From Oscillospiraceae bacterium (GTDB lineage Bacteria > Bacillota > Clostridia > Oscillospirales > Oscillospiraceae), in the NCBI GenBank assembly GCA_017552325.1, contig JAFZQE010000061.1:1-56321 (forward strand): 56,321 nt of DNA, in the 5' to 3' direction. Of the stretch, positions 3,701 through 17,099 are shown one piece after another. The first letter of the stretch is position 1; the number at the start of each line of letters is the position of its first letter. The translations under genes and the position numbers were made by a program. The notes below the pieces were generated by a model. The model had not been told where the DNA came from, ran no database searches, and was given only the letters and a program-made list of their open reading frames with translations.

Positions 3701-6700
3701 GATGTCAACGATCGCGATGAAGGCCAGATAGTTGTCATCCTTCGCGGTGACGGCGATCTGGGTCTTGTCGTCGTTGACCTCGACCTTGGTGATCTGCGGA
3801 GCAATGCTGTCGACCAGGAAGGTGTAGTCGATGGAAGCGCCGTCGCCGATCTCGCCGTCTTCAAGCAGGCCGGCGATTTCACCGGCGGTCACAGCGGTCC
3901 TGTTCTCGCCCGGGTGGAGCATCATGCCGTAGTACTCGGGGACAGCATACAGGCCGATCGTGAAGGTGTCGCCGTCCTTCAGGCCGAGCTTGGCAGCGCT
4001 GGTGTTGAGGGACATGGTCTTCGTGCCGGTATCGCGCCACTGCTGACCGTTCACGTAGTACCAGGCGCCGGTAACGTTGTTGTTGAAGGTGCCGTTGGTG
4101 ATCAGGCCGCCATCATCGTCAAGCGCCATCCAGCCGACGCTCGCGGCGTTGCGGATCAGGTTGTACTTGAAGTTGACAAGAGCCGTGTCGGCATTCACCG
4201 CCAGGCGGTCGGCCGGGAACTCGTCCTCAACCGCGTAGGGGTTGCCCATGTAGATGCTCTCTTCAGCACCGTAATTGACCGTCAGGTAGTTGGTAACGGC
4301 ATTGCCGGTGTAGCTGATCTTGGTGCTGCCGTAGGCCTTGTCGATCGCGCTGACGCAGTCGAACATGGAGGCGTCGGTCCAGCTGCCGTAGTAGCCCAGA
4401 ATTGGGATGGTGTGGATCGCGCCGACCATCTCGCCGTCATCGGTCTCGGTGAGAGGATAGACGTAGGTAAAGCCCTCGACGTAGAAGCCATTCTCGAAAT
4501 AGTAATCGAGAACCATCATGGTGTACTCGTCAAGAGTGAGATTCACCGTGACAGTAACGCTCTCGCCAGCGGGAACGAGCAGGGTGTCGGTGCCGCCCTG
4601 GGCTTCCAGCCACTCGAGCAGGAGCTGCGCGTCGTAGGAGCTGATGCCGTCCTCGCCGTCCATTTCGCCGGCGTCGAGATCGAGGTCCTCATAATAAGGG
4701 CTTTCGGCCTGGCCGGCCTCGTAAGCGCCGGTGATGTAGTCGAGCAGAGCCTGCGCGTCGTCCTCGTCGGTGTCACCGTCCTTGTCGACGTCGTGGAGGT
4801 TCGGGATGAGGGTCGGGAAGCTGTAGCTCTCGTAGAAGTCTTCGCCAGCGAGGAGGAGGATCGTGGCGTCATCCAGGAACAGGTTGCCGTCTGCGTCAGC
4901 GCCGGCGATCCACTGGGTGAACAGATCCGTCGCAAGGAAGTACTCCATGTCGATATCGCTGAAGTTGTTGACGGTAAAGCTGAAGGTGTACTCGCCGGTG
5001 CGGGCGGCGTCCTGGCCGAGCTCGACCTTGACCTTGCCGTCCTTCCAGGAGGCGGTGGCGTCCTCGCCCATCAGGATGTAAGACTTGGCCTGCGTGGCAG
5101 CAAAGGTGTCGCCCAGACCGGAGTCCTGCTGCAGGATGGAAACATAGTCGCCGTCGTTGATCATCGGGGTGGCCGTGCTCATCAGCAGGGAGTTGATGAG
5201 GGTGCGGCGGTTCTGGCCGGTGACCTCTTCAAGGTTGTTCTCGCGGATGTACTGGCCGAGCAGGGCAGCCATGCCGGTGACGTGAGGCGCCGCCATGGAG
5301 GTGCCGCTCATGTACTCGTACTCGGTATCGGTCATGCCGTTAACGGAGTAGATGTCACCGCCGGGGGCCGTGATCTCAGGCTTCATGATCAGGCTGCCGG
5401 GAACGCCCCAGGAGCTGAACACGGTGACGGTGGCGTCCTCGCGTTCGGTGTTGATAATGGGCATCGCATCCGCGGTGATCTCCACCGTGCCGGTGTAGTA
5501 GCCGTCCGCAGCCGTGGAGTTTTTGCGGATCTCATCGCCGTCGGCCTTCAGGATGGAGACGACGGGAGCCCTGTATTTGTAGCCGGACAGGTTCATGTTG
5601 ATGGTGCCGGCCTGGTTGTTGATGATGATTACCGCAACAGCGCCCTGCGCGACGGCAGCGTTGGCCTTCACGTAGAACGAGGAGGAGCCGCGGTAGCAGA
5701 TGGCGACCTTGCCGGACAGAACCTCGCTGCCCAGAACGGCAAAGGCGTCATTTTCGGTTCCGATCGCAGTCTCGCCGTTGTCATCGTCTTCATCCGTCAG
5801 CGGAGTAACGCCGGGGCCGTTGACCAGCACGTATTCATAAGTACCGGCGATGGTGCTGATCGGCCTGTTGCCGTACGCAGAGCCGTCGTTGCCGGTGGTG
5901 ATCTCCGTAAAGCCGATCAGCTGATCGTCGTTAAAGATCAGCGGAGCGGCGATAGTGCCGACGTTCTCAGCCGCAGCAACACAGAGGCTGTTGACGAAGG
6001 AGCCGGGGGAGCCGCCGGTGTGCAGGCCCACGTCCTCCAGGTAGAGGTAGGGGATGCCGGAGGGTGCGAAGTAGCCCCACTTGTATGCGTTGCCCGCGGA
6101 GATGGACACCACGGTGCCGCACTCGACCAGGCTGTCCAGGATCGCCTGGTAGCCGTTGGAGAAGGTAAAGCCGGGAGAGCCGGAGCCCAGCGACAGGTTG
6201 ACGGAGTCGGCGCCGAGAACGATGGCGTCCTCGATGGCGACCATGTAGTCGGAGTCGTAAGCGCCGCCGCCTCTGCCGAAGACCTTCATTGTGAGAATCT
6301 GCGCGTCAGGCGCAACGCCGACGGCGAATTTGCTGGTCGCAGACTCGACGAACTTGCCGTCGACCTTCACATAGCGGTTGGCCGCCGCGATGCCGGACAC
6401 GTGCGAGCCGTGCTCGCCCTGCGTATCGCTGTCGTGGTCGGTGGTGTAGCCGCCGTCAACATAGTTGTAGGCGTAGGGGATCTTGGTGTTCTTGTAGACA
6501 TTCTGGTTGACCGTGACGTTCAGCTGGCCGGCTTCTGCAAGCGCGCTGATATCGGCCCAGGTCAGCAGATCATAGTCGCCGCCGTCTTCCTCAAGGGCGT
6601 ACTCCAGAGCCTCAGGATCGAAGGAGATATGATCCTGGTTCGTGCCGGTGTCGATGATGGCAACCTTGGAGCCGGCGCCGGTGTAGCCGTTCGCCCAGAC

Positions 6701-13548: not shown

Positions 13549-13577
13549 TGTGCTATCCTTAATTTGGGTGATTGTTT

Positions 13578-14732
13578 ATGCCTGAAAGCAAGATCTGTCC
13601 GCACGCGGCGCGCTGCGGCGGCTGTCAATACCAGGGCCTGCCCTACGCCGAACAGCTGGCGAAAAAGCAGGCGCTCGCGGAGGAGCTGCTCGGCTCCTTC
13701 GGCCCCGTGCTGCCGATCCTCGGCGCGGACGAGCCGACGCACTACCGCAACAAGGTGCACGCCGCCTTCGGCTACGACCGGCAGCGGCGCGTCGTCTCCG
13801 GCGTCTATCAGCCGGGCAGCCACGTCATCGTACCGGTGGAGGACTGCATGATCGAGGACGAAACCGCCGACCGCGTGATCGCCGCCGTGAGGGAGCTGCT
13901 GCCGAAGCTGAAGCTGTCGGTCTACGACGAGCGGCGCGGCGGCGGCTGGCTGCGGCACGTGCTGGTGCGGCGCGGCCTCGCCACCGGGCAGCTGATGGTG
14001 GTGCTCGTCGCCGTGTCGCCGGTGTTCCGGAACCAGAAGGCCTTCCTCGCGGAGCTGCTCGGGCGCTTCCCCGAGATCCGCACGGTGGTGTTGAACGTCA
14101 ACGACCGCTTCGGCCCCGTCGTGCTCGGGCCGAAGAGCAAGGCGCTGTACGGCGACGGCTACATCGAGGACGAGCTCTGCTCTCTTCGCTTTCGCGTCTC
14201 TCCCTCGGCCTTCTACCAGATCAACAGCGCCCAGTGCGAGAAGCTCTACGCGGCGGCCATCGACTTTGCCGGTCTTACCGGGACGGAGACGGTGCTGGAC
14301 GCCTACTGCGGCGTCGGGACGATCGGGCTCTGCGCCGCGGCGAAGGCGAAGCAGGTCGTCGGCGTCGAGCTCAACCGCGAGGCCGTGCGCGACGCGATCG
14401 CCAACGCCCGCCTCAATGGGATCAAAAACGCCTTTTTCGCCGCCGGAGACGCCGGGGCTTATATGGAGGACATGCTGCGCGAGGGCGGGCGGCCCGACGT
14501 CGTGCTGATGGATCCGCCGCGCGCCGGCAGCGACCGCCGCTTTCTCGAGGCGCTGATCCGCTGCGCGCCGAAGCGCGTGGTCTACGTCTCCTGCGCGCCG
14601 GACACGCTGCGCCGGGATCTGGAGATCCTGACCCGCGGCGGCTACCGCGCCGAGGCGATCCGGCCGGTGGACATGTTCCCGTACACGGAGCATGTGGAGT
14701 CAGTCGTATTGATCACTCGAGTCGGGTTGTGA
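13578..14732 (+). CDS. 23S rRNA (uracil-5-)-methyltransferase, RlmD/TrmA family
   Basis: The 384-residue product is a SAM-dependent uracil-C5 methyltransferase. Iron-sulfur cluster cysteines are at C7, C13 and C16 (CPHAARCGGC) with a fourth candidate in VEDCMIE. The Rossmann core is VLDAYCGVGTIGL, followed by the DPPRAG motif and the catalytic-cysteine motif VYVSCAPDT (Cys339). It lacks the N-terminal TRAM domain of longer members. I chose ATG 13578 because GGGTG lies 7 nt upstream; a TTG six bases earlier is possible. The last dozen codons (TCA, GTA, TTG, ACT, CGA) are unlike the rest of this GC-rich gene and match the repeat at 15294-15324, so the 3-prime end seems to have been replaced by an inserted element. 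Confidence 0.92.
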   Translation: MPESKICPHAARCGGCQYQGLPYAEQLAKKQALAEELLGSFGPVLPILGADEPTHYRNKVHAAFGYDRQRRVVSGVYQPGSHVIVPVEDCMIEDETADRVIAAVRELLPKLKLSVYDERRGGGWLRHVLVRRGLATGQLMVVLVAVSPVFRNQKAFLAELLGRFPEIRTVVLNVNDRFGPVVLGPKSKALYGDGYIEDELCSLRFRVSPSAFYQINSAQCEKLYAAAIDFAGLTGTETVLDAYCGVGTIGLCAAAKAKQVVGVELNREAVRDAIANARLNGIKNAFFAAGDAGAYMEDMLREGGRPDVVLMDPPRAGSDRRFLEALIRCAPKRVVYVSCAPDTLRRDLEILTRGGYRAEAIRPVDMFPYTEHVESVVLITRVGL

Positions 14733-14768
14733 CTACAGATTGAATGTTACTAAAAATGAAAAGGAAAC

Positions 14769-15206
14769 ATGATGGAAACAAAAAACAGATGCTATACGTA
14801 TTTCAGAATTGTCGGAGATTTTGACCCCGATATTGCGACTGCTCGTTTAGGTCTTATGCCAACAGAAAGTTGGAAAATCGGAGATACTCGGAGAAACGGC
14901 ACAAAGTTTGATTTCGCTTTGTGGGAATATGGTAGATGTTCGGAATACGATGTTCTTGTTGAAAACCAAATGCGAAAAACCATATCCGACCTACTCGACA
15001 AAACTGATATTTTGAATCAAATTAGAAGTGAATATGATGTAAGTTTTTGCCTTGAGATTGTTCCGACGATCTATGTAGGAGATACAAATCCTTGTCTTGC
15101 TCCGCCTTTGGATATTATTGATTTTTGTCACGCAACCAGAACAGAAATTGATATAGACATGTATATCTACTCACAGGAAGATGAGACTGATAAAATACTC
15201 GGATGA
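14769..15206 (+). CDS. DUF4279 domain protein (cassette 1)
   Basis: The 145-residue protein matches DUF4279: YTYFRIVGDFDPD at the start, then RLGLMPTESWKIGD with TRRNG, a WEYG segment, a helical middle with a repeated Leu/Ile pattern, and TEIDIDMYIYS at the end. The family has no proven enzymatic activity; members are often found near polymorphic-toxin and immunity loci, which is family knowledge rather than evidence here. An AAAAGGAAA ribosome site precedes the ATG. Codon use is AT-rich, unlike the flanking chromosome, which points to transfer. No toxin gene is adjacent. Confidence 0.85.
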   Translation: MMETKNRCYTYFRIVGDFDPDIATARLGLMPTESWKIGDTRRNGTKFDFALWEYGRCSEYDVLVENQMRKTISDLLDKTDILNQIRSEYDVSFCLEIVPTIYVGDTNPCLAPPLDIIDFCHATRTEIDIDMYIYSQEDETDKILG

Positions 15207-15216
15207 AACAAGTGAC

Positions 15217-15324
15217 CAACGACATAGACTTTACGTCGAGGGTCGTGGCAACAGCGTAGATAATGGTCTTTTTATTCACGCTATTGTCCCAAGGCATGTG
15301 GAATCAGTCGTATTGATTACACGA
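15217..15324 (+). repeat. Cassette repeat S1
   Basis: This 108-bp segment aligns without gaps to S3 (16492-16599), about three quarters identical by eye. In frame it reads QRHxxY, then RGNSVDN, then FIHAIVPRHVESVVLITR. It contains an imperfect inverted repeat (CAACAGCGT 15249-15257, ACGCTATTG 15278-15286). An open frame from ATG 15181 to the TAG at 15331-15333 (50 codons) includes it. Confidence 0.85.
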
Positions 15325-15380
15325 GCCGAGTAGAGGCTACAACATAGATATGACAAGGATGAAAAAAGGAGAATGTATCA

Positions 15381-15785
15381 ATGGGATTGTTTGATGCTTT
15401 TATGAAGAAAAAAACTGAGCTTTCCGACCAGCAAAAGAGATGGAATAAGATGTGGGATCTGTGGGCATCGGGACAAGTTGATTCACCCTATGCAGAATTG
15501 ATGACCTATCAAAGCGAGATAAACAACGGAGGACACGATCAATACTTTGTAAATGTTGAAAACATATCTGATTTACAAAAAGAAGTGTCAGTTTTAGCGA
15601 CGATTTTGCCAGAAACGCTTCAACACAATTTGCAGGTTGCGTATCAAGCATATCTGGAGTCAAGTGAAAAAGATCTTGACCAATCGGCGGATGAGATTTT
15701 TGAAAAATGTGACAACGTTTTTTTTGAGAACGAGGAGCAGATTGATTGCCTATTAAAAGCTTATGCTGAAAGGATCGTCCTTTAA
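15381..15785 (+). CDS. DUF4375 (DMP19-like) protein (cassette 2)
   Basis: The 134-residue protein has the DUF4375 hallmark INNGGHDQYFVN (about residues 49-60) and an alpha-helical remainder with an acidic C-terminus (DLDQSADEIFEKCDN). DMP19, the named member, is described as a DNA-mimic protein; other members are of unknown role and some sit in immunity-gene neighbourhoods. AAAGGAG lies upstream of the ATG. AT-rich codon use contrasts with the surrounding genes. It is flanked by repeats S1 and S2, consistent with an independent cassette. Confidence 0.85.
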   Translation: MGLFDAFMKKKTELSDQQKRWNKMWDLWASGQVDSPYAELMTYQSEINNGGHDQYFVNVENISDLQKEVSVLATILPETLQHNLQVAYQAYLESSEKDLDQSADEIFEKCDNVFFENEEQIDCLLKAYAERIVL

Positions 15786-15866
15786 GTTTGCTTGTTGAGC
15801 ATGACCAGAGATTAACTTAGTATCTATATTGTTGTCTCAACCGTTTCAGAAAGCGGGAACTAAGCC

Positions 15867-15958
15867 ACGAGGGCGTGCGAGTAATCAGTGTAGATAATGC
15901 CCGTTTTATTCACGCTATTGTCCCGGCGCACGTGGAGACGGTGGTATTGATGGAGCGA
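15867..15958 (+). repeat. Cassette repeat S2
   Basis: This copy is more diverged at its left end. From 15889 it reads SVDNARFIHAIVPAHVETVV in one frame, ending at a TGA (15965-15967) that overlaps the ATG of the next gene as ATGA. Most differences from S1 and S3 fall in third codon positions. Confidence 0.8.
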
Positions 15959-15963
15959 TTAAA

Positions 15964-16464
15964 ATGAAAAAATACACAGTATTGTTTTTAAAAAACAGGT
16001 TGTTGATTACATCGTTATTCGGATCATTCTTTTTTCTTCTGTTCTTTTTTGTCTTACTGTTTATTCCAGATGCTGCTTATCCCCCGATTTTTGCGCTTTT
16101 AGCTTATGTTCCTTTCGTAATATGGTATGGTATTGATATTATTATGACGATTCGTTTTCGAAAACTGATTCGCTTTCAGGAAAACCTCTTAAATGTTGTT
16201 TTCAATGATGATAATGCCATACCTCTGTTTCCAAAATCCTTGACATACATATCAGATAGTTGGTTGATTTTTTCCGGAAAAGAGGCTTTTCACAAGCTAT
16301 TTATTGAGAGAATCTCAATTAAAACAATTCACACCAATATGGGAAATGACTATAATCTGAAGATAATGACCCGTAAAGGGAAAACTTACACAAAGGTAAT
16401 TGATTCCTATACAAGTGCGAAAAAGATTCAAAATTGGCTAAAAAACACAAAATGCTCGATATAA
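15964..16464 (+). CDS. Small membrane protein of unknown function (cassette 3)
   Basis: I do not recognise this 166-residue protein. It has a basic N-terminus, two strongly hydrophobic segments (about residues 15-37 and 40-60, rich in Phe and Leu), then a soluble tail of about 100 residues with alternating beta-like strands (YLKIMTRKGK-like pattern near 125-140) that could be a PH-like fold. The start codon overlaps the stop of the repeat S2 reading frame. It is the most AT-rich of the three cassette genes. An immunity role is conceivable from context only. Confidence 0.7.
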   Translation: MKKYTVLFLKNRLLITSLFGSFFFLLFFFVLLFIPDAAYPPIFALLAYVPFVIWYGIDIIMTIRFRKLIRFQENLLNVVFNDDNAIPLFPKSLTYISDSWLIFSGKEAFHKLFIERISIKTIHTNMGNDYNLKIMTRKGKTYTKVIDSYTSAKKIQNWLKNTKCSI

Positions 16465-16491
16465 GTATTGTTTGATAAATGATAAAATGTT

Positions 16492-16599
16492 CAACGGCAT
16501 ATTCCATACGAGGACGACCGTGGCAACAGCGTAGATAACGCCATTTTTATTCACGCTGTTGTCCCGAGGCACGTGGAGACTATAGTCCTTCTGTCACGG
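16492..16599 (+). repeat. Cassette repeat S3
   Basis: This last copy reads QRHIPY, then RGNSVDN, then FIHAVVPRHVETIVLLSR. It holds a perfect 9-bp inverted repeat, CAACAGCGT (16524-16532) and ACGCTGTTG (16553-16561), with a 20-nt loop. GC-rich host-like sequence resumes right after it. Confidence 0.85.
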
Positions 16600-16664
16600 G
16601 ACATGCCGCAGCGGCAGGATCGCAGACCGGGACATGCCGCGGCGGGGATCGGGAGAGATGAGAT

Positions 16665-17099
16665 ATGATCAGAAGAGCGGATAAAAAAGACGCGGCGCTC
16701 CTTGCCTCGCTGGCCGTGCAGATGTGGACGGAGCATGATCCCGCCGAGCTGGCGGAGGAGTTCCGCGCATCGATCGGGGACGAGGACGCGGCCTGCTTTC
16801 TCAAAACCGCCGCCGGCAGAGCGGTCGCCTTCGCGCAGTGTCAGCTGCGGCATGATTTTGTGGAGGGCACGGAGACCTCGCCGGTCGGATATCTGGAGGG
16901 CGTCTTCGTCGCGGAAGGATATCGCCGGAGAGGCGTTGCCGCGGAGCTGCTGGCCGCCTGCGAGAACTGGGCGAGAGAGAAAGGCTGCGCGGAGTTTGCC
17001 AGCGACTGCGAGCCGGACAACCTCGACAGCCTGCGCTTCCATCTGGCGACGGGCTTTGAGGAAGCCAACCGGATCATCTGCTTTAAGAAAAACCTGTAG
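16665..17099 (+). CDS. GNAT acetyltransferase resembling aminoglycoside 6-prime-N-acetyltransferases
   Basis: The 144-residue protein has the GNAT acetyl-CoA loop EGYRRRGVAAELL (about 86-98) after the YLEGVFV strand, and a C-terminal segment ASDCEPDNLDS then HLATGFEE that follows the pattern of AAC(6-prime) type I enzymes. A ribosome site GGAGAG lies upstream. Aminoglycoside acetylation is a family-level suggestion; many such chromosomal proteins have other substrates. It is the first host-like gene after the cassette array. Confidence 0.8.
   Translation: MIRRADKKDAALLASLAVQMWTEHDPAELAEEFRASIGDEDAACFLKTAAGRAVAFAQCQLRHDFVEGTETSPVGYLEGVFVAEGYRRRGVAAELLAACENWAREKGCAEFASDCEPDNLDSLRFHLATGFEEANRIICFKKNL

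Follow-up and report, generated by a model that had tools for sequence, protein, structure and literature searches.

We analyzed a stretch of 56,321 nucleotides (nt) from an Oscillospiraceae bacterium (assembly GCA_017552325.1, contig JAFZQE010000061.1; hereafter the window), in which three small genes lie downstream of a gene of the rlmD/rumA type, encoding a 23S rRNA uracil methyltransferase. We consider it probable that these genes are mobile cassettes of one gene each, stacked behind rlmD through site-specific recombination at a short core sequence within its last codons. Comparison with related loci establishes, at the level of sequence, where the units begin and end, that each unit regenerates the tail of the methyltransferase, and that units are exchanged between contexts.

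The window array

The sequence GCAYGTGGARWC occurs exactly at positions 14690, 15294, 15928 and 16569 of the window, always on the plus strand and with core-to-core spacings of 604, 634 and 641, just as an earlier note on this DNA had reported. With up to one mismatch allowed there are seven matches where 2.1 are expected, and seven were reached in 0 of 100 shuffles. The cores are not due to chance, since an exact 30-base part of the repeat to which they belong is found in 61 stretches of other public genomes (57 assemblies by accession prefix). The four cores delimit three co-directional, AT-rich units of one gene each: their GC contents are 38.9, 40.5 and 34.6%, compared with 68.8% in rlmD and a host-like 62.9% downstream of the array, which bears out the base composition given in the note.

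The host gene occupies 13572..14732 (PF05958, 1.6e-22) on the plus strand, as do all features of the array. The left junction is an attB-like core, GCATGTGGAGTC, inside rlmD at 14690..14701, located by pattern match and by the points at which homology to other units starts; the same points put the likely crossover at the dinucleotide GA at 14697-14698. By our reading of the tails, the last codons of rlmD, from the core onward (HVESVVLITRVGL-stop), are part of unit 1. The open reading frame (ORF) of unit 1 (14769..15206, 145 aa) encodes a DUF4279 protein (PF14106, 5.3e-20) whose homologue in locus L161, carried by a unit of like format, is 74% identical, and that of unit 2 (15381..15785, 134 aa) a DMP19 protein (PF14300, 2.4e-8), the whole unit being 84% identical to one in L162; Pfam thus confirms both family names proposed earlier. 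The ORF of unit 3 (15964..16464, 166 aa) has no Pfam match, and the N-terminal part of its product is hydrophobic by eye.

At the 3' side of each small gene stands a repeat, as the note had seen, and it is longer than described there: three copies of 93 nt, each an arm of about 90 bp that ends in the core. Repeat 1 (15211..15303, core at 15294), delimited by repeat search and alignment, has an inverted repeat in its arm; repeat 2 (15845..15937, core at 15928) has a type 2 arm and repeat 3 (16486..16578, core at 16569) a type 1 arm, both from repeat search and arm typing. The later copies are 61% and 78% identical to the first. Each unit begins within codons of the RlmD tail (HVE[ST]VVL...stop) and finishes in such an arm. 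Because the units start in these codons, unit 1 re-supplies the C-terminus of RlmD, which at present reads ...DMFPYTEHVESVVLITRVGL-stop, its final codons lying within unit 1. After the last repeat, at 16570..16668 and 1.9 kb from the gene, HVETIVLLSRDMPQ... runs to a stop; judging by its translation (HVETIVLLS) and its host-like GC content, we take it as the displaced 3' end of the host rlmD.

Just past the array, in this displaced tail, an 18-nt direct repeat, CGGGACATGCCGC(A/G)GCGG, lies at 16597-16645, and the gene behind the array encodes a GNAT acetyltransferase (Pfam). No Rfam match up to E 1 was obtained for 14500-16800, and no terminator-like site for 14600-16800, compared with 1.8 in shuffles; the reading as a familiar RNA element or a terminator was rejected on this basis.

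Repeats, units and their exchange between contexts

Covariance-model searches extended the repeat to other loci (L) and genomes (G). One search gave 45 matches, less two weak ones (14 bits). Another gave 78, from which we removed one weak antisense match and two that were truncated at the end of a locus; the 118 remaining matches correspond to 104 distinct ones, and to 98 anchored repeats after removal of five weak ones and the unanchored L117, a set in which a few matches are still weak (17-30 bits). The model did not match L140 and L150, which belong to the 61 pattern stretches, and neither is included in the counts. In the alignment of the 98 repeats, the informative positions span about -82 to +10 relative to the core, with the strongest signal from -24 onward; past the core the variation falls at third codon positions. 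The motif HVE follows the core in frame in 85 of 97 repeats (one row was too short to read), and HVE[TSC] in 77 of them.

The inverted repeat, scored as present when 12 or more of 14 pairs form, occurs in 63 of 98 arms and 6 of 53 rlmD ends, compared with 12 of 98 shuffled arms and 1 of 53 shuffled ends, and it stops before the core. An extended, attC-like fold including the core was also examined by folding, and the repeats shown do not form it consistently. Cells in which both partners have changed number 21 among the 76 in-register repeats, against 13.8 in shuffles, a value reached by 6 of 500 shuffles. The arms fall into at least three sequence types (22 of the 98 are unclassed by the patterns used), and in both pairs compared by eye in the alignment, DMP19 in the window and L162 and DUF4279 in the window and L161, the arm type tracks the cargo. 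Several units have a 15-nt motif of the arm again in their 5' tail; a GGGTCGTGACTACAG-like sequence is common to arm and 5' tail of several units, including the window near 14710-14740, and in L157, near 916-1010, tail and arm are fused without an ORF. Other arms are joined at the same core (e.g., TTCTGTT|GAGAC) in L114 between 6318 and 6415 and in L142, L170 and L131, so that further types of cassette end exist. At the rlmD end in L049 and L042 there is a different short element, a palindrome around the core (in L049 GTCGAGACAGT...ACTGTCTCGAC, with two copies 200 bp apart, at 1137 and 1337 read on the rlmD strand).

Fifty-three units are delimited at both ends, and 46 of them measure 506-1504 bp. 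In 48 of the 51 units measured (those below 2.8 kb, which leaves L110 and L126 outside), the longest ORF has the same orientation as rlmD, and in 41 of those 48 its stop lies 81-168 bp upstream of the core. More arm types exist than the model detects, so these unit counts are lower bounds and some 'units' contain two cassettes. By comparison, then, a cassette consists of the 3' half of the core with the RlmD tail codons and their stop, an ORF in the rlmD direction, and an arm of about 90 bp ending in the 5' half of the core.

The cargo is diverse: 88 proteins of at least 80 aa near the 98 repeats form 57 clusters, so the core does stand beside many unrelated genes, in the 61 stretches as in the window, and is not confined to the three genes that the note had listed. 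We scanned a further 50 cargo proteins, drawn from the 57 clusters (some clusters twice), with Pfam. Eight are GNAT acetyltransferases, 19 have no match, and the rest are mixed, among them methyltransferase, 23S_rRNA_IVP, DUF2716, DUF5071, DUF6998, GmrSD, M3 and trypsin-like peptidases, 2'-5' RNA ligase, beta-lactamase fold and CPT-like proteins. None of the 50 has a match to a recombinase or transfer family. One cluster of related small proteins recurs in the unit behind rlmD in L095, L120 and L125, its L125 member matching 23S_rRNA_IVP.

The same cassette is met in different surroundings. The DMP19 unit, second in the window array, is first behind rlmD in L162, with a core-to-core DNA identity of 84% across 660 bp (window 15293-15951); the RlmD of L162 shares 42% and 41% identity with the two paralogues of G000, which need not be its orthologues, so that the distance between the hosts is only indicated. 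One GNAT unit occurs in five left contexts (L097, L114, L142, L146, L168) at 92-98% DNA identity over 558-582 bp, and a unit that follows rlmD in L109 follows a repeat in L148 (96% over 481 bp). In many pairs homology starts at the GA of the core (+8), directly past sequence that otherwise differs, which suggests exchange at or next to this dinucleotide; in other pairs it begins earlier or later, or the locus ends, and some pairs with very short upstream stretches were left unused. These comparisons portray the cassettes as core-to-core units that are interchangeable across genomes and positions.

Titles of the 61 stretches name Bacillota only, many from the rumen or other parts of the animal gut: Oscillospiraceae, Ruminococcaceae, Ruminococcus, Lachnospiraceae, Clostridiaceae, Erysipelotrichaceae, Solobacterium, and Clostridia or Clostridiales without a family. 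Many source genomes are metagenome-assembled, and their repeats are often near contig ends. Within the order of the window, 19 of 394 genomes have covariance-model matches, its own included, three of them (G336, G351, G385) resting on weak matches of 27-30 bits; three further genomes of the same genus (G030, G033, G036) also have repeats. The class gave 7 of 391 (four weak, the window's own genome, G775 and G792) and the phylum 4 of 299 (the window's own genome again, plus three weak), where weak matches of 25-37 bits are not counted as members; search filters make all these genome counts lower bounds. The window's own genome has a fourth repeat in a second array, with a DUF2716 unit, behind a second rlmD paralogue. 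The 30-base pattern had no match in viral contigs, nor window repeat 3 in plasmids or phages, and on these grounds carriage of the repeat by phages or plasmids was rejected.

Among 74 arrays examined, 53 have one recognized repeat and 21 have two or three (18 and 3, respectively). For the 34 arrays with at least 2.5 kb of upstream sequence, the single length rule that we used, an rlmD-type gene lies within 4 kb upstream in 24, and an orphan rlmD 3' fragment in one (L052); rlmD also precedes four arrays with shorter upstream sequence (L103, L124, L129, L143). Repeats were found in 3 of 21 rlmD1 3' flanks (G000, G030, G033), the flanks coming from 22 genomes with a close rlmD1 and ranging from 0.1 to 14 kb in length (three fell short of 1 kb). 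The array at the rlmD end varies between relatives, as the note expected of a cassette array, and gene order is not fixed. Orphan C-terminal fragments of rlmD lie in or beside arrays at L052:6542-6749, L112:2005-2202 and L113:2471-2554, possibly as a carried receptor site. An alternative RlmD tail, VCCLYHQKKDFISV..., recurs right after the repeat in L107, L109, L143, L155 and L159, and also ends rlmD itself in G013 (L036) and G036 (L044).

How the cassettes may move

We propose that a circular cassette recombines its own core (GGCAYGTN|GA) with that of rlmD (CAYGTN|GA). The cassette supplies the same coding half, so the left junction would again be a usable site, and the right junction would bear the cassette's own arm; insertion could therefore be repeated, with the newest cassette adjoining rlmD. 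RlmD would retain its HVE[ST]VVL C-terminus throughout, and the cargo would be read together with rlmD. The mover would act in trans and is probably a serine recombinase, given an exchange at or near the short GA step and the presence of ICE-like elements (ICE, integrative and conjugative element) with large serine recombinases at the same rlmD site.

Among the 19 repeat-bearing genomes chosen (16 from the order's 19, plus G030, G033 and G036), 13 encode large serine recombinases (PF07508), a count confined to genomes with the repeat. In L107 (7997-9736) and L176 (end near 6523, minus strand), the ends of large-serine-recombinase genes are fused to cassette tails at the core of rlmD. Taken with L032 (near 2522), these are joins of such gene ends to cassette tails or other sequence, like those of streptococcal rumA ICEs. 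Recombinase genes lie beside arrays in L107, L176, L098 and L135; in L115 the distance to the array is 5 kb. A small resolvase stands beside L135, unproven as mover. Four serine recombinases (two in the window's own genome, one each in L107 and L135) match Ccr models far below the cut-off. On the window contig, where the note had seen neither IntI nor any other recombinase, there is indeed no match to PF07508 or TIGR02249, the only recombinase families searched; small resolvases and transposases were not covered, and the statement holds to that extent.

Several observations weigh against the cassette model. No recombinase is tied to these repeats in the genomes and loci examined, so the co-occurring enzyme that the note had asked for is not established. 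Six of the 19 genomes (the assemblies are incomplete) lack large serine recombinases, and the cassette arm is missing from every serine-recombinase 3' end observed at this core in the loci examined. Nine of the 34 arrays are without rlmD in the upstream sequence examined, and an ICE-like end explains only two of these nine (L107, L176). HVE is missing after the core in 12 of 97 repeats, and an open frame of 10 codons is found in 95 of 97 repeats in the HVE frame compared with 85 and 29 of 97 in the other two, so openness is not specific to HVE. Covariation of the inverted repeat is modest: in the 76 in-register repeats 75% of cells are paired, compared with 74% in shuffles. L099 and L101, whose arms differ, both have a T at +7; this fits a crossover at GA less well and argues for a slightly more leftward exchange point. 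Many arrays lie near contig or locus ends, and the evidence consists of sequence comparison. The share of arrays that follow rlmD (24 of 34) and the lack of a tRNA gene beside the L098 recombinase have lowered our confidence slightly.

The alternative that survives best concerns the mover: a tyrosine recombinase, for which the inverted repeat or the GGGTCGTGACTACAG motif would act as an accessory binding site. We regard this as a possibility to be kept in mind, though distinctly less probable than a serine enzyme. The recurrence of the 15-nt arm motif in 5' tails would fit it, and tyrosine recombinases are encoded in all 19 chosen genomes. One such gene (PF00589, 460 aa, L098:2169-3551) lies 0.8 kb beyond a two-repeat array that has no rlmD in the sequence examined. 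By eye this gene had seemed part of a separate, tRNA-inserted element, an idea not upheld, as ARAGORN finds no tRNA beside it. On the other side, L098 is the only array beside which such a gene was found, apart from one weak tblastn match in L150 (no family search was made beside the arrays), and at the core the serine-recombinase gene ends and other arms share only the short GA step with cassette tails. Overlaps of tyrosine recombinases are usually longer than that.

Homologous recombination alone, with RecA swapping units via the repeats and the conserved rlmD end and no dedicated recombinase active today, is unlikely. It would account for the lack of a cognate recombinase in the genomes and loci examined, and the repeats are similar enough for tails and arms to act as homology. 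Against this, homology between units starts at or near the core while the left contexts (rlmD, repeats, other arm types) differ right up to it, and an RlmD tail follows 85 of 97 repeats. Still more improbable is that the units are decayed ends of larger elements, ICEs or integrative and mobilizable elements (IMEs), once integrated in rlmD. There are alternative rlmD tails and serine recombinases at the same core, and rumA is a known target of a serine-integrase ICE, as the note had stated for streptococci (PMC4701971). The units themselves are short, have their ORF in a fixed direction (48 of 51) and recur intact in different genomes, which weakens this reading, and 0 of the 50 scanned cargo proteins matched a recombinase or transfer family.

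Relation to known systems

The window shares with integrons an array of co-oriented single-gene cassettes that are stacked at one receptor site and each bear a 3' recombination-type site of their own, along with variant sites and unrelated cargo; the order of elements that had led the note to the comparison is thus real, and the co-directional format with a 3' site holds in 48 of 51 measured units. Integrase-less arrays of this kind resemble CALINs (clusters of attC sites lacking integron-integrases). Membership is ruled out: IntI (TIGR02249) scored above its cut-off in 0 of the 19 chosen genomes, several of which are incomplete assemblies (at E <= 0.001 the model also detects general tyrosine recombinases), and paired attC boxes are missing. 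The attC R boxes read RYYYAAC ... GTTRRRY, with the crossover at GTT; here GTTRRRY is found at the core in 1 of 98 repeats, and paired GTTRRRY/RYYYAAC boxes in 0 of 98. A further difference is that the receptor site lies within a protein gene whose C-terminus the cassette restores. By these sequence criteria the arrays are not integrons, and their way of working appears integron-like.

The att layout resembles that of the staphylococcal and Enterococcus cassette chromosomes (SCC and ECC), which CcrAB inserts at the 3' end of rlmH, likewise an rRNA methyltransferase gene. As described in PMC6222049, ECCs have an inverted repeat in attR and in the circle site, with several attR sites in 16 of 32 ECCs; correspondingly, our inverted repeat is in the attR-side arm (63 of 98) and rarely in the gene-borne site (6 of 53 rlmD ends). 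According to the same paper, ECCs encode CcrAB large serine recombinases and have sizes from 21 (kb, as we read it). Our units differ in being mostly 0.5-1.5 kb, in having no ccr recombinase gene among the 50 cargo proteins scanned, and in their target, an rlmD-type gene with a GGCAYGTNGA core instead of rlmH with a TATCATAA core. The rumA ICEs of streptococci use the same kind of target gene and, according to PMC4701971, a single serine integrase with reciprocal exchange of coding 3' parts. These ICEs carry their integrase, with attR in its gene, and our cassettes do not: no integrase was found in the window units (Pfam) or among the 50 scanned proteins, such genes being neighbors of arrays in L107 and L176, and the cassette arm is unlike the serine-recombinase gene ends seen here.

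The last candidate is the recombinase-associated acquired interbacterial defence (AID) system of gut Bacteroidales, which likewise consists of arrays of small acquired genes in gut bacteria. That the window represents a Firmicute counterpart, selected to collect immunity genes against interbacterial toxins, as the note had surmised, is very improbable and was rejected on cargo: although DUF4279 and DMP19 are, according to the note, families often found in toxin-immunity neighbourhoods, the only immunity-plus-toxin pair among the 50 proteins (SUKH and Tox-GHH) and the only PADLOC match among 10 proteins (HEC-07, 2.6e-8, L110:4776-6206) both come from unit L110, the three window genes have no PADLOC match, and the 50 proteins are mostly GNATs, unknowns and mixed families rather than immunity genes, as judged by family. 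The hosts are also Bacillota here, and the window contig has no recombinase of the two families searched.

No description of such arrays turned up in searches of the open-licence literature of PubMed Central (PMC). Integrons are the textbook collectors of gene cassettes and are known mainly from Proteobacteria. There is, in our estimate, about an even chance that gut Bacillota have an independently evolved counterpart, in which one-gene cassettes free of a recombinase gene, probably moved in trans by serine recombinases with an SCC-like att logic, are collected at rlmD, each re-encoding the C-terminus so that the platform gene is always preserved and acts as the site of expression. If so, this would be a second cassette system, with other sites, a protein-coding target and uncultured gut Bacillota as hosts, and cassette capture would have evolved more than once. 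It would also bring to light a pool of exchanged small genes, most of them unannotated, and a format in which each cassette repairs the gene it targets.

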